The notes beneath the pieces are model-generated. The model searched no databases. It worked only from the letters and a program-made list of their open reading frames with translations, and was not told the origin of the DNA. From Sphingomonas koreensis (lineage in GTDB: Bacteria; Pseudomonadota; Alphaproteobacteria; Sphingomonadales; Sphingomonadaceae), in assembly GCF_002797435.1 (NCBI RefSeq), contig NZ_PGEN01000001.1, positions 3,842,501 through 3,906,500 on the forward strand: a stretch of 64,000 nt of DNA. Reading direction: 5' to 3'. Shown in pieces: positions 26,610-39,766 of the stretch (position 1 is the first letter of the stretch; every line of letters starts with the position of its first letter). The position numbers and the translations under genes are program-made.

Positions 26610-26613
26610 CGCC

Positions 26614-26707
26614 GCGGGAGTCGGGCGGACGATGCCGTCGCCAACCCGGTCAGGTCCGGAAGGAAGCAGCCGTAACGATTTTCGTGTCGGGTCGTCCCGG
26701 CTCCCAC
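26614..26707 (+). ncRNA. ffs: Signal recognition particle RNA, small bacterial type (4.5S)
   Basis: The segment CAGGTCCGGAAGGAAGCAGC (from 26651) is the universal SRP RNA apical hairpin with the GGAA tetraloop and the asymmetric loop bound by Ffh. The ends GGGAGTCGGG (26616-26625) and CCCGGCTCCC (26696-26705) pair with one G-U, closing a rod of about 90 nt. It binds Ffh and guides co-translational targeting to FtsY and SecY. Confidence 0.93.
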
Positions 26708-26709
26708 CT

Positions 26710-27117
26710 TCACTTCACCGTCGGCGAATAATCGGTCAGGCGCAGCGTGCGATCCTGGATCGCGCCGACGATCGGGCGATGCTCCGCGGGCGTCTCGCGC
26801 TTGATCCGCGCCCATTCCGCGTCCGCCATGAACGCGCTCCACGCCGCCTTCATCCGCGCCTCGTCCGGCCAGCGCAGCAGATAGGCGAATTCGGGCTTCT
26901 CGGCGGTCCCACTCTCCCACATCGCGACGATTTCGAACCCGTGGCGGCGCATGATGCGCGTGGCATGATCGCGGAAGCGGTCGTGGAACGCCGCCTTGCT
27001 GTGCGGATAGAGTTCATAGACGCGGAGCTGGTAGACCGGCGCGGCGACGACATGGCTCTGCGCGTCGGCGGGTGCGGCGACGGCAAAGAGTGCTGCCATT
27101 GCAATCCCCTGGACCAT
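26710..27117 (-). CDS. NIPSNAP-family secreted protein
   Basis: The 135-aa product has a signal peptide (about 1-19) followed by a ferredoxin-like NIPSNAP domain starting at YQLRVYELYPHSKAAFHDRF and containing IVAMWESG and YLLRWPDEARM. Family function is unclear in bacteria. RBS GGAG lies 6 nt before the ATG. The gene is convergent with ffs; only 2 nt separate the two. Confidence 0.8.
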   Translation of the reverse strand: MVQGIAMAALFAVAAPADAQSHVVAAPVYQLRVYELYPHSKAAFHDRFRDHATRIMRRHGFEIVAMWESGTAEKPEFAYLLRWPDEARMKAAWSAFMADAEWARIKRETPAEHRPIVGAIQDRTLRLTDYSPTVK

Positions 27118-36638: not shown

Positions 36639-38828
36639 ATGACGATTCAGATCCGCACCAGCCTTGCCGAGCCTGAGACCGGACCGGGTTTCGTACCGCA
36701 CAGACCCGCCCGTCCCGAGAAGAGCGAGGGCGGCAAGGCGTTCAAGCTGGTCAGCGAATACACTCCCTCGGGCGACCAGCCGACCGCGATCAAGGAACTG
36801 ACCGAGGCGGCGCTGGCGGGGGAGCGCGATCAGGTGCTGCTCGGCGTCACCGGTTCGGGCAAGACCTTCACCATGGCCAAGGTGATCGAGGCGCTTCAGC
36901 GCCCAGCGCTGATCCTCGCGCCCAACAAGATCCTCGCCGCGCAGCTCTATGGCGAGTTCAAGAGCTTCTTCCCCGAGAATGCGGTCGAGTATTTCGTCAG
37001 CTATTACGACTATTACCAGCCCGAGGCCTATGTGCCGCGGTCGGACACCTACATCGAGAAGGAAAGCTCGGTGAACGAGGCGATCGACCGGATGCGCCAT
37101 TCCGCCACCCGCTCGCTGCTCGAACGCGACGACGTGATCATCGTCGCCTCGGTCTCGTGCCTCTATGGCATCGGATCGGTCGAGACCTATTCGGCGATGA
37201 TCTTCGACCTGAAAAAGGGCCAGGTCGCCGACCAGCGCGAGATCATCCGCAAGCTCGTCGCGCTCCAGTACAAGCGCAACGACGCCGCCTTCGCGCGCGG
37301 CAATTTCCGGGTGCGCGGCGACAGCCTGGAGATCTTCCCGTCGCACTATGAGGATACCGCCTGGCGGATCAGCTTCTTCGGCGACGATATCGAGGAGATT
37401 ACCGAATTCGACCCGCTGACCGGCGCCAAGGTCGCGAACCTCGATCACATCCGCGTCTATGCGAACTCGCACCACGTCACGCCCGGGCCGACGCTCAAAC
37501 AGGCGATGGAGGCGATCAAGCACGAGCTGGCCGAGCGGCTCAAGGAATTGCAGGCCGAGGGGAAGCTGATCGAGCATCAGCGGCTGGAGCAGCGCACCCA
37601 TTTCGACCTGGAGATGATCGCCGCGACCGGCAGTTGCGCGGGGATCGAGAATTACAGCCGTTTCCTCACCGGCCGCCTGCCCGGCGAGCCGCCGCCGACG
37701 CTGTTCGAATATCTGCCCGAAAATGCGCTGCTGTTCGTCGACGAGAGCCATCAGACCGTGCCGCAGATCGGCGCGATGGCGCGCGGCGACCACCGGCGCA
37801 AGATCACGCTGGCCGAATATGGCTTCCGCCTGCCGAGCTGCATCGACAACCGCCCGCTGCGCTTCAACGAATGGGATGCGATGCGGCCGCAGACGGTATG
37901 CGTATCGGCGACGCCGGGCGGATGGGAGATGGACCAGACCGGCGGCGTGTTCAGCGAGCAGGTGATCCGCCCCACCGGCCTGATCGACCCTCCGGTCGAG
38001 ATCAAGCCGGTCGAGGAGCAGGTGCAGGACCTGATCGTCGAGTGCCGCAAGACCGCCGAGAAGGGGTATCGCACGCTCGTCACCACGCTGACCAAGCGCA
38101 TGGCCGAGGACCTGACGGAGTATATGCACGAGGCGGGGATCAAGGTCCGCTACATGCATTCGGACGTCGAGACGCTGGAGCGTATCGAGCTGATTCGCGA
38201 TCTGCGCATGGGCGTGTACGACGTGCTGATCGGGATCAATCTGCTGCGCGAAGGGCTTGATATCCCCGAGTGCGGGCTGGTTGCGATCCTCGACGCGGAC
38301 AAGGAGGGGTTCCTGCGATCGGAGACCTCGCTGATCCAGACGATCGGCCGCGCCGCGCGCAACGTGGAGGGGCGCGTGATCCTCTATGCCGATCGCATCA
38401 CCGGCAGCATGGAGCGCGCGCTCAACGAGACCAGCCGCCGCCGCGAGAAGCAGGAAGCCTATAACCGCGAGCACGGCATCACCCCGACCACGATCAAGCG
38501 CAACATCGGCGACATCATCGCGCATGTCGCGTCGAAGGATCAGGTGACGGTCGAGATCGAGGACGGCCCCGCGCACATGGTCGGCCACAATTTGCGCGCG
38601 TATATCGAGGAGCTCGAGAAGAAGATGCGCGATGCTGCCGCCAACCTCGAATTCGAGGAAGCCGGCCGCCTGCGCGACGAGATCCGCTCGCTCGAGGCCG
38701 AGGAACTGGGCCTGCCGCACGACCAGCATCGCGCGCCGGTGATGGGTCGCAGCAACGAAGGCAAGCCGGGCACGCGCAAGGGTAGGTTCGGCAAGGTGCA
38801 GCGCAAGTGGGGCGGGGGGCGGCGCTGA
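36639..38828 (+). CDS. uvrB: Excinuclease ABC subunit B
   Basis: UvrB is the damage-verifying helicase-like subunit of nucleotide excision repair. The 729-aa product has Walker [11 protein letters not shown] near residue 69, the damage-binding beta hairpin with [12 protein letters not shown] near 125, the DESHQT box near 369, helicase motifs V-VI (IGRAARN) and a C-terminal UVR domain (about 660-695). GAAGG serves as RBS. The LexA-type box upstream indicates SOS control. Confidence 0.97.
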
Positions 38829-38878
38829 GGCGTCCCATGCGGTTGAGCCGCCGGGCGGCTTCGCCCATAAGGCTCGAT

Positions 38879-39397
38879 ATGCGTGTCATTTTTGCTTTCG
38901 CGTCGCTCGCCGTCCTCGCCGGTTGCGTGGCGCCGTCCGCCCCGCCACCAGCGCCCGCGCGGCCCCTCCCGGTTCCGGCTCCCGCCCCAGCGCCGGAGCC
39001 CCCACCGCCGCCCGCGAGCAGCGACTGGCGCGACTGGCCGCTGACGCCGGGCGGGTGGAACTACCGGCAGGATTCGCGCGGTTCGCTCGCTCTGTTCGGG
39101 CAAGGGGGCGATCCGGCGCTTACCTTGCGTTGCGACCGCTCGGTGCGCCAGCTGCAGCTCACCCGGCGCGGCGTCGCGCCGGGGACGATGACGGTGCGGA
39201 CCAGTTCGACCGCGCGCAGCCTGACCACCAATGGTTCGACCGACGGTGCGTCGGCGACGCTGCCCGCAAGCGATCAGCTGGTCGATGCGATGGGCTACAG
39301 CCGCGGGCGTTTCATCGTCGAGACACCCGGCGCGCCACCGCTGGTGGTGCCGGCCTGGGCTGAAGTGCTGCGGGTAGTGGAGGATTGCCGGGGTTAA
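38879..39397 (+). CDS. Proline-rich lipoprotein, unknown
   Basis: ATG 38879 gives 172 aa with a lipoprotein signal (ASLAVLAGC, cysteine near residue 16), a proline/alanine linker (about 20-50, APAPAPEPPPPP) and a small C-terminal domain starting at DWRDWPLTPGGW. No enzymatic motif is seen. It follows uvrB by 50 nt and may be read through from it. Confidence 0.75.
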   Translation: MRVIFAFASLAVLAGCVAPSAPPPAPARPLPVPAPAPAPEPPPPPASSDWRDWPLTPGGWNYRQDSRGSLALFGQGGDPALTLRCDRSVRQLQLTRRGVAPGTMTVRTSSTARSLTTNGSTDGASATLPASDQLVDAMGYSRGRFIVETPGAPPLVVPAWAEVLRVVEDCRG

Positions 39398-39436: not shown

Positions 39437-39449
39437 AACAAGACTTGTT
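39437..39449. promoter_or_regulatory. 13-bp palindrome upstream of the short-ORF transcript
   Basis: AACAAG-A-CTTGTT is a perfect inverted repeat with one central base, lying about 30 bp before the putative -35 of the small transcription unit at 39.5 kb. It has the form of an operator for a dimeric regulator. Confidence 0.45.
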
Positions 39450-39478
39450 CTCCGAATCCGGATGATTCAAAGTCGCCT

Positions 39479-39506
39479 TGTATCCAGGCCGGGTACAGCG
39501 TTCTAA
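39479..39506 (+). promoter_or_regulatory. Putative promoter of the short-ORF transcript
   Basis: TTGTAT (39479-39484), 16-nt spacer, TTCTAA (39501-39506). Transcription would begin about 39511-39513, directly at the long Shine-Dalgarno. Confidence 0.45.
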
Positions 39507-39527
39507 CAAGCGAAAGGAGGTGATCCG

Positions 39528-39584
39528 ATGTCTCATGGTTCAGCAATGGGGTCGGTTCAGTTCGTTCGGGAGACGCGCCGCTAA
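39528..39584 (+). CDS. 18-aa peptide ORF behind an extreme Shine-Dalgarno
   Basis: ATG 39528 lies 7 nt after GGAGG inside a 15-nt match to the anti-Shine-Dalgarno tail. The frame encodes MSHGSAMGSVQFVRETRR, basic at its C-terminus, then TAA. It is too short for homology calls; the RBS, its spacing and the independent transcription unit are the only support. It could be a leader peptide whose translation controls the hairpins behind it, or a functional micropeptide. Confidence 0.5.
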   Translation: MSHGSAMGSVQFVRETRR

Positions 39585-39721
39585 GTTCAGACTGCATCCG
39601 GTGGAAGCCCTCCACCGGTAAGGCGCACGGGGGGTATCCTCCCCCAATCAACGGCGCCAGCAGCGGACAAGCGGCCCGCATGGTCTCCCGGGCTGGAGCT
39701 TCCGGCCGCTGACCATGTCGG

Positions 39722-39766
39722 AGGTCACCGGGTGCCAGGGATGGCCCCGGTGGCCTCTTTCATTTT
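39722..39766 (+). terminator. Intrinsic terminator of the short-ORF transcript
   Basis: An 11-bp stem (AGGTCACCGGG / CCCGGTGGCCT, one G-U pair) with additional pairing in the loop (GCC/GGC) is followed by CTTTCATTTT. It is also placed to stop the minus-strand methyltransferase transcript. Confidence 0.75.

Follow-up and report, generated by a model that had tools for sequence, protein, structure and literature searches.

We identified a conserved, structured RNA locus at about 39479-39766 (+) of the window, by which we mean the whole 64,000-nucleotide stretch of Sphingomonas koreensis DNA analyzed here. The comparative evidence gives good support for placing this RNA as the sphingomonad branch (type A) of the family catalogued in Rfam as CC2171. 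By sequence comparison, an extreme Shine-Dalgarno sequence, the start codon, the length of a short open reading frame (ORF) and its stop are conserved, and codons 3-6, 8-10 and 13-15 make up, on the same evidence, the 5' strand of a long-range hairpin, with the 3' strand immediately preceding the terminator. We infer from this pattern of evolution that ribosomes translate the ORF. The locus is probably best explained as a translated structured RNA whose function lies in being translated and not in the peptide.

A preliminary description of the locus had proposed a stand-alone transcript with an 18-codon ORF behind a Shine-Dalgarno sequence complementary to 15 nt of the 16S 3' end, followed by hairpins and an intrinsic terminator. 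In outline, this proposal fits the sequence evidence for a stand-alone, conserved, structured RNA, and the ORF, the Shine-Dalgarno sequence and the hairpins were all present in relatives (features in Table 1). The sequence GAAAGGAGGTGATCC was an exact match and the single exact copy in the 4.4 Mb genome. Because no 16S gene was found in the S. koreensis genome sequence searched, its complementarity to 16S rRNA relies on the usual alphaproteobacterial tail; the computed duplex with this tail has an energy of -29.7 kcal/mol. The ORF translates as claimed, and both the hairpin and the tail TTTCATTTT assigned to the terminator are in place, with no terminator reported at the locus by a simple consensus scanner. 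Positions 39508-39766 fold better than dinucleotide shuffles (z = -6.9, with 0 of 200 as good), as do positions 39479-39766, which include the 5' leader (z = -5.7, again 0 of 200). Of 149 genomes in the same family, counting S. koreensis itself, 132 gave a blastn match at E <= 1e-3, and a covariance model built without the window sequence recovered the locus at 138 bits.

Table 1. Features of the RNA locus and its upstream region, in window coordinates.
Feature	Position	Strand	Basis
Probable promoter: -35 CTTGTT (39444-39449), GATTC (39464-39468), -10 CAAAGT (39468-39473)	39444..39473	+	matches place of relatives' promoter
5'-end hairpin TGTATCC/GGGTACA, near likely transcript start	39479..39497	+	sequence, fold; predicted start site
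Shine-Dalgarno sequence GAAAGGAGGTGATCC, full-length	39512..39526	+	exact match, unique in genome
18-codon ORF MSHGSAMGSVQFVRETRR, start ATG at 39528, stop TAA at 39582-39584	39528..39584	+	stop position kept in type A
Helix P1a, 5' strand CATGGTTCAGC, codons 3-6	39534..39544	+	RNAalifold, pair counts, cross-branch changes
Helix P1b, 5' strand GGTCGG, codons 8-10	39550..39555	+	RNAalifold, pair counts
Helix P2, 5' strand CGGGAG, codons 14-15	39567..39572	+	double-sided changes, 5/7 pairs
Insert, two local hairpins (CCGGTGGA/TCCACCGG; GGGGGG/TCCCCC)	39598..39645	+	fold
CATGGTC, local partner of GACCATG (39711-39717) in alternative fold	39679..39685	+	fold of 39479-39766
Helix P2, 3' strand CTCCCG	39685..39690	+	RNAalifold, pair counts, covariance model
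Helix P1b, 3' strand CCGGCC	39702..39707	+	RNAalifold, pair counts
Helix P1a, 3' strand GCTGACCATG	39708..39717	+	RNAalifold, pair counts, cross-branch changes, covariance model
Intrinsic terminator, hairpin 39720-39757 and tail TTTCATTTT	39720..39766	+	double-sided changes 14/14 pairs, fold

The preliminary description knew of no RNA family that fits this locus, a view that did not hold. The window RNA matched the Rfam model RF01867 (Caulobacter sRNA CC2171) over its full length (model positions 1-159 of 159) at 29.8 bits and E 9e-5 in a search run with a permissive threshold, short of the gathering score of 75 bits, and two independent covariance models linked the sphingomonad and CC2171-like branches. 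To build these models, we used a Shine-Dalgarno-start pattern to gather 186 sequences, each distinct over 140 bases, and divided them into type A (MSHGS, sphingomonads; 86), type B (SHC; 73) and a mixed group (27). Selection by distinctness and presence of the 3' element left 51 type A and 55 type B sequences, 10 of the 73 type B sequences having been dropped with the 3' element absent as searched. Seven type A and nine type B sequences were then removed by hand, mostly with long middles, some alignment ends were hand-trimmed and one row was used without ten 5' bases. The resulting models, R1 (44 type A sequences) and R2 (46 type B sequences), give rough E-values. R1 matched the window at 138.2 bits (39504-39764) and a CC2171-like copy elsewhere in the S. 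koreensis genome at 38.8 bits; R2 matched the window at 35.3 bits (rough E-value 5.6e-9) and type A sequences down to about 1e-15. Across Sphingomonadales genomes, where a covariance search had been proposed, R1 found matches in 61 of 147, all of them in the window's own family, and R2 in 54 of 118.

Type A and CC2171-like RNAs share their anatomy. Like CC2171, the window RNA presents in the same order a Shine-Dalgarno sequence, a start, a long-range helix that joins codons 2-6 to the 3' element, and a terminator, in a comparison whose type B rows had been selected for the 3' element. Unlike CC2171, type A scores under the curated cut-off, has an ATG start, an MSHGSA-type ORF and another P1 sequence, and the window RNA carries a large insert. 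Each of ten homologues compared with Rfam matched RF01867 at E <= 0.01 and fell short of the cut-off. Rfam lists CC2171 as an sRNA. In the open-licence papers searched, CC2171 and Caulobacter were not found together, and we found neither an ORF description for CC2171 nor any description of the sphingomonad branch. This branch is divergent within a known sRNA family and, as far as that literature goes, undescribed.

The family is spread widely through the class Alphaproteobacteria. At E <= 1e-3, RF01867 itself matched 39 of the 190 class genomes searched, and seven of these scored above the cut-off; in a set of 14 control genomes, its single match was Caulobacter vibrioides. In a class-wide sample of 289 genomes, R2 had matches in 74. 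In a sample of the phylum it matched 64 of 249, of which 62 belong to the class and two are weak matches outside it; one of these two (L276) continues as a long open frame and therefore looks like an ordinary gene start. Scanning named genomes with a sequence pattern yielded at least 120 stretches, and Sphingomonas, Novosphingobium, Erythrobacter, Methylobacterium, Bosea, Microvirga, Azospirillum, Brevundimonas, Roseiarcus and others were among the matches listed. The pattern was also seen on a contig labelled Candidatus Kuenenia (L155), probably a mis-binned alphaproteobacterial contig. S. koreensis carries a second, CC2171-like copy (G000:C1:3210510-3210660, 65 bits to RF01867). In the stretch around it (L080, G000:C1:3209010-3212160), a nucleotidyltransferase-HEPN gene flanks this copy on one side and a type IV secretion coupling-protein gene on the other, neighbors that hint at a mobile island. 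Plasmid and phage records gave no match to a 101-base core of the window RNA, nor did plasmid records to a homologue from family f181.

Sixty further stretches matched by R2 mostly showed the same arrangement with other peptides, such as MSSDFVFQNVASADCTFGKQSSR and its relatives (family f181), VSYTKRCHLAGIAR (f171) and VSREVLENGVGTAWEVRL (f22). Of the 60, one lacked a site and four lacked a start of the kind looked for; the other 55 gave a readable ORF, 13-34 codons long in 54 and 56 codons long in one. A near-complete anti-16S Shine-Dalgarno sequence, usually GAAAGGAGGTGATCC, was common to the branches read, together with a short ORF and a terminator, and was slightly altered in some of the 60 stretches. 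In L135, L162, L173 (Azospirillum), L043 and L317, the same Shine-Dalgarno sequence and start precede a signal-peptide-like protein of 56-59 residues; the L135-type protein, of about 59 residues, is hypothetical in databases. These longer ORFs may descend from the family as coding genes, or the family may have arisen from them.

We then compared the ORFs. Of 75 distinct type A sequences, 69 had their first in-frame stop at base 54, and stops in frames +1 and +2 were scattered. ORF length was 17-20 codons in 72 of 75 type A sequences (shuffled mean 5.8, maximum 12) and 20-28 codons in 69 of 71 type B sequences (shuffled mean 10, maximum 17), figures that come from related sequences and hence are not independent trials. 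In the full type A collection, 80 of 86 sequences had an 18-codon ORF; in the type B collection, 70 of 73 ORFs had 20-26 codons. TAA, TGA and TAG were all used as the stop, and the neighboring bases varied.

The residues behaved differently from the frame. Codon-level conservation had been suggested as a check of the ORF, and amino-acid selection was undetectable in type A: an RNAcode-like score over codons 6-18 gave z = 0.0 against column-shuffled alignments (40 sequences drawn), and third codon positions were conserved as much as first and second ones, and we rejected a conserved peptide in this branch. At codon 7, with entropies of 1.66/1.77/0.37, the first two bases vary and the third hardly does. 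Residue changes in type A coincided with changes in RNA pairing, and peptides of different branches had little in common past the first two residues. The amino-acid score was weakly positive in type B (z of 1.4, 2.8 and 2.0 for 25-, 24- and 23-codon ORFs), again for related sequences that are not independent trials. A micropeptide selected for its sequence, one of three functions guessed at in the preliminary description, is thus unsupported in type A (z = 0.0); amino-acid selection on the peptide, as one mark of a dual-function RNA, likewise gives no signal in type A and a weak one in type B. Since frame and stop are conserved without the residues, a role for the act of translation is favored, and the best reading of the alignments is that the ORF is conserved for ribosome passage and not for its peptide.

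One alternative is that the RNA is a base-pairing sRNA and the ORF a by-product of its conserved sequence. The Rfam entry as an sRNA, the strong structure with its terminator and the lack of a coding signal in type A residues would all suit such an RNA, as would ribosome profiling in Caulobacter, in which, according to the available part of the report, most ncRNAs are intergenic and not translated (Schrader et al. 2014, PMC4117421). The same part of that report states that two previously predicted Caulobacter ncRNAs are translated, so that it cuts both ways; CC2171 may be untranslated in Caulobacter. A by-product would not be expected to keep its stop in place while stop codon and neighboring bases vary and the other frames are scattered, or to follow a strong Shine-Dalgarno sequence at start-codon distance in the branches read, and we consider this alternative unlikely.

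Rather improbable, too, is a micropeptide gene whose 18-residue peptide is the product and whose Shine-Dalgarno sequence merely secures high output. The strongly conserved frame and stop, the weak amino-acid signal of type B and the longer ORF of the Azospirillum branch, with its hypothetical protein of about 59 residues, would be expected of such a gene. So would the Sinorhizobium meliloti protein SEP1, which the accessible text of PMC10117765 describes as having 23 residues, a pI of 4.18, conservation in Rhizobiaceae and the top translation efficiency of 54 candidates. The 12 f181 ORFs that we read have 23-24 codons and a pI of 4.4-6.5, so that SEP1 falls just outside their range; going by length and by the description in that text, SEP1 may be a homologue of the f181 ORFs, and we regard it as a lead. 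Against a micropeptide stand the type A alignments, with no amino-acid signal and equally conserved third positions, the dissimilar peptides of the branches and the residues of type A that change where the RNA pairing changes.

The pairing itself is well supported. From the type A alignment, RNAalifold proposed P1a, P1b, P2 (codons 13-15) and the terminator unaided, as well as a small hairpin of the Shine-Dalgarno sequence with the start region that we excluded from the pair count; from type B it proposed P1a, the terminator and the small Shine-Dalgarno hairpin only. In type A, 94.6% of cells were paired, compared with 84.4% in shuffled and 31-48% in slid alignments. Double changes occurred in 174 cells (70 when shuffled; 0 of 500 as high) and in 19 pairs (15.2 when shuffled; 4 of 500 as high), by shuffle controls that do not account for the kinship of the sequences. 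The helix between codons 13-15 and the 3' arm (P2) covaries, with double changes in 5 of 7 pairs, and all 14 modelled pairs of the terminator have changed on both sides in relatives. In P1a, 8 of 10 pairs are invariant throughout type A, and its pairing within a branch is in part built in, since the alignment rows had been selected for the 3' element.

Between branches, this first helix does covary. It recurs in the same place with changed partners, as in CATGGTT:GACCATG, CATTGTC:GACAATG, CATTGCC:GGCAATG, CATGAAT:ATTCATG, CGAGATC:GATCTCG and ATGAGATT:AATCTCAT. In the search for this helix, single matches were often no better than 20 shuffles, and it is their recurrence and the changed partners that are informative; a position-by-position pairing scan was uninformative because invariant columns pair with everything. 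The 3' element was absent in seven stretches of the wider list, three of type A in which the locus ends early and four Azospirillum-like ones outside type A. With the terminator approximately cut off, the median fold z was -2.95 in type A (46 sequences), -1.46 in type B (65), -1.97 in the mixed group (20) and -2.16 in distant stretches (42), and 8 of these 173 sequences had a z above 0, with 33 skipped. The middle part of the RNA varies in length and content among type A relatives and is much shorter in many of them, which makes the insert of the window RNA lineage-specific. By eye, short leader hairpins like that at 39479-39497 are visible in some relatives, and a GCAG(C/U)C loop recurs near the ORF end or just past the stop (L049, L258, L260-L262, L273 and others). 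Since this loop occurs in different frames, it looks like an RNA motif.

Computed folds suggest a switch between two mutually exclusive forms. Without the 5' leader, the minimum-energy fold had P1 and P2 formed and the Shine-Dalgarno sequence weakly paired. With the leader, the Shine-Dalgarno sequence and start paired with codons 8-13 and the 3' element with its local partner CATGGTC; the P1 fold is the minimum only when the leader is left out. For 70 type A and 59 type B sequences, we also compared the full RNA with a fragment ending at the stop. Openness of the Shine-Dalgarno sequence differed modestly (0.41 in the full RNA and 0.34 in the fragment for type A; 0.45 and 0.34 for type B), and that of the start codon was 0.51 and 0.38 in type A and 0.60 and 0.30 in type B. 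Closing of the start region during transcription is contradicted by these values, since the start region of the ORF fragment is less open than that of the full RNA. An anti-Shine-Dalgarno mimic within the ORF was also rejected: pairing of the Shine-Dalgarno sequence with the ORF went only slightly beyond shuffles (mean z -0.6 to -1.2; -0.1 to -0.5 for the 3' region).

We regard it as very doubtful that the RNA is a decoy or trap for 30S subunits, in which anti-16S pairing would hold initiating ribosomes and a helix past the start would block their progress. The -29.7 kcal/mol duplex with the usual alphaproteobacterial 16S tail and the position of P1a, with its first base six bases downstream of that of the start codon, are what such a trap would have. 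A trap could do without a conserved stop, yet the length of the ORF is strongly conserved, and one small RNA would need to titrate a very large ribosome pool.

The promoter originally proposed, TTGTAT-N16-TTCTAA, was not supported. Its hexamers are present (39478-39483 and 39501-39506), but a consensus scanner found no promoter at the locus and a different promoter recurs in relatives; TTGTAT overlaps the hairpin formed by 39479-39485 with 39491-39497. The recurrent pattern, CTTG-N18-21-YAYNYT, occurred in 42 of 86 type A upstream regions (shuffled mean 0.4, maximum 4) and in 10 of 73 type B ones (shuffled mean 0.6), and GANTC abutted the -10 element in 25 of the 42 promoter-like sites (mean 0.56 and maximum 4 with shuffled spacers). 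The combined CTTG/GANTC/-10 pattern was found 25 times in 9.5 kb of type A upstream sequence, and not once in 978 kb of type A flanks (both strands) or in the window. As these patterns were devised after viewing the upstream regions, the comparison with shuffles overstates the signal, and the comparison with the flanks does so to a lesser degree. The -10 element of the window, CAAAGT, is degenerate and falls outside the pattern. GANTC is the site of CcrM, and GcrA acts at such promoters in Caulobacter. The placement of GANTC at the -10 element suggests methylation-dependent, cell-cycle-linked expression.

Upstream of the RNA, an uncharacterized gene (38807-39397) lies on the same strand in 78 of 86 type A loci and in one MSHGP locus, and in 67 of these 79 loci its match ends 60-260 bases before the Shine-Dalgarno sequence. 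It has no Pfam match; by eye, it encodes a small protein with an apparent lipoprotein signal. Outside type A, no cluster of neighbors has more than 4 members and orientation is mixed. The largest same-strand downstream cluster has 9 members, all type A and again amid mixed orientation, and the downstream gene in the window is convergent. With no conserved same-strand gene downstream, we rejected an attenuator or cis leader. More broadly, a cis element, be it a 3' UTR product of the upstream gene or an attenuator, is highly improbable: the same-strand upstream gene of type A would agree with it, and the promoter-like element of the RNA itself in 42 of 86 type A loci, the small mixed clusters elsewhere and the convergent gene speak against it. 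Elsewhere in the window, a bacterial small SRP RNA (RF00169, 60.5 bits) lies at 26613-26711.

The locus resembles several known systems in part. In hok-like type I toxin mRNAs the 3' end folds back, and the ORF start likewise pairs with the 3' end of the mRNA; unlike theirs, the peptides of the family described here are neither hydrophobic-toxin-like nor conserved. Pos19 of Rhodobacter sphaeroides, too, is a stand-alone small RNA whose short ORF is translated, but the available text on it reports translation that is partly Shine-Dalgarno-dependent and an RpoE promoter (PMC5036791). The same text finds Pos19 solely in R. sphaeroides strains, for which reason we rejected it as a relative. The small RNA rnTrpL/peTrpL of S. 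meliloti likewise carries a very short ORF that is translated, as described in the accessible part of PMC10117765; it differs in that its ORF is leaderless and lies in the trp attenuator. BjsR1 and BjsR3 of Bradyrhizobium were also considered as possible relatives, from text that gives no sequence for them.

For the favored reading, a translated structured RNA, a hypothetical mechanism can be outlined. Ribosome loading would compete with RNA folding between one form, in which the long-range helices are closed and the Shine-Dalgarno sequence is free, and another, in which the Shine-Dalgarno sequence pairs within the ORF and the 3' element takes a local partner instead. One of the two would expose the 3' arm, or stabilize the RNA, for a regulatory task, and production would follow the GANTC-marked promoter. 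Dual-function and ribosome-sensing RNAs, the remaining two guesses of the preliminary description, are candidates here. A bolder and quite tentative version is that of a class-wide chromosomal translation-sensing RNA, a "ribosome test track" with GANTC-methylation-linked synthesis and an irrelevant peptide: the complete anti-16S site would load ribosomes, one passage over the ORF would reset the hairpin fold, and ribosome availability would thereby set the fold and hence the activity or stability of the RNA.

Together, these results show that CC2171, filed as a Caulobacter sRNA, has relatives in many families of its class, and Caulobacter itself carries a copy of the family. To our knowledge, most known examples of ORFs conserved for translation as such, regardless of product, are cis leaders. 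If our reading is true, a stand-alone, class-wide ORF kept for translation would raise the question of whether these bacteria use it in sensing ribosome supply.
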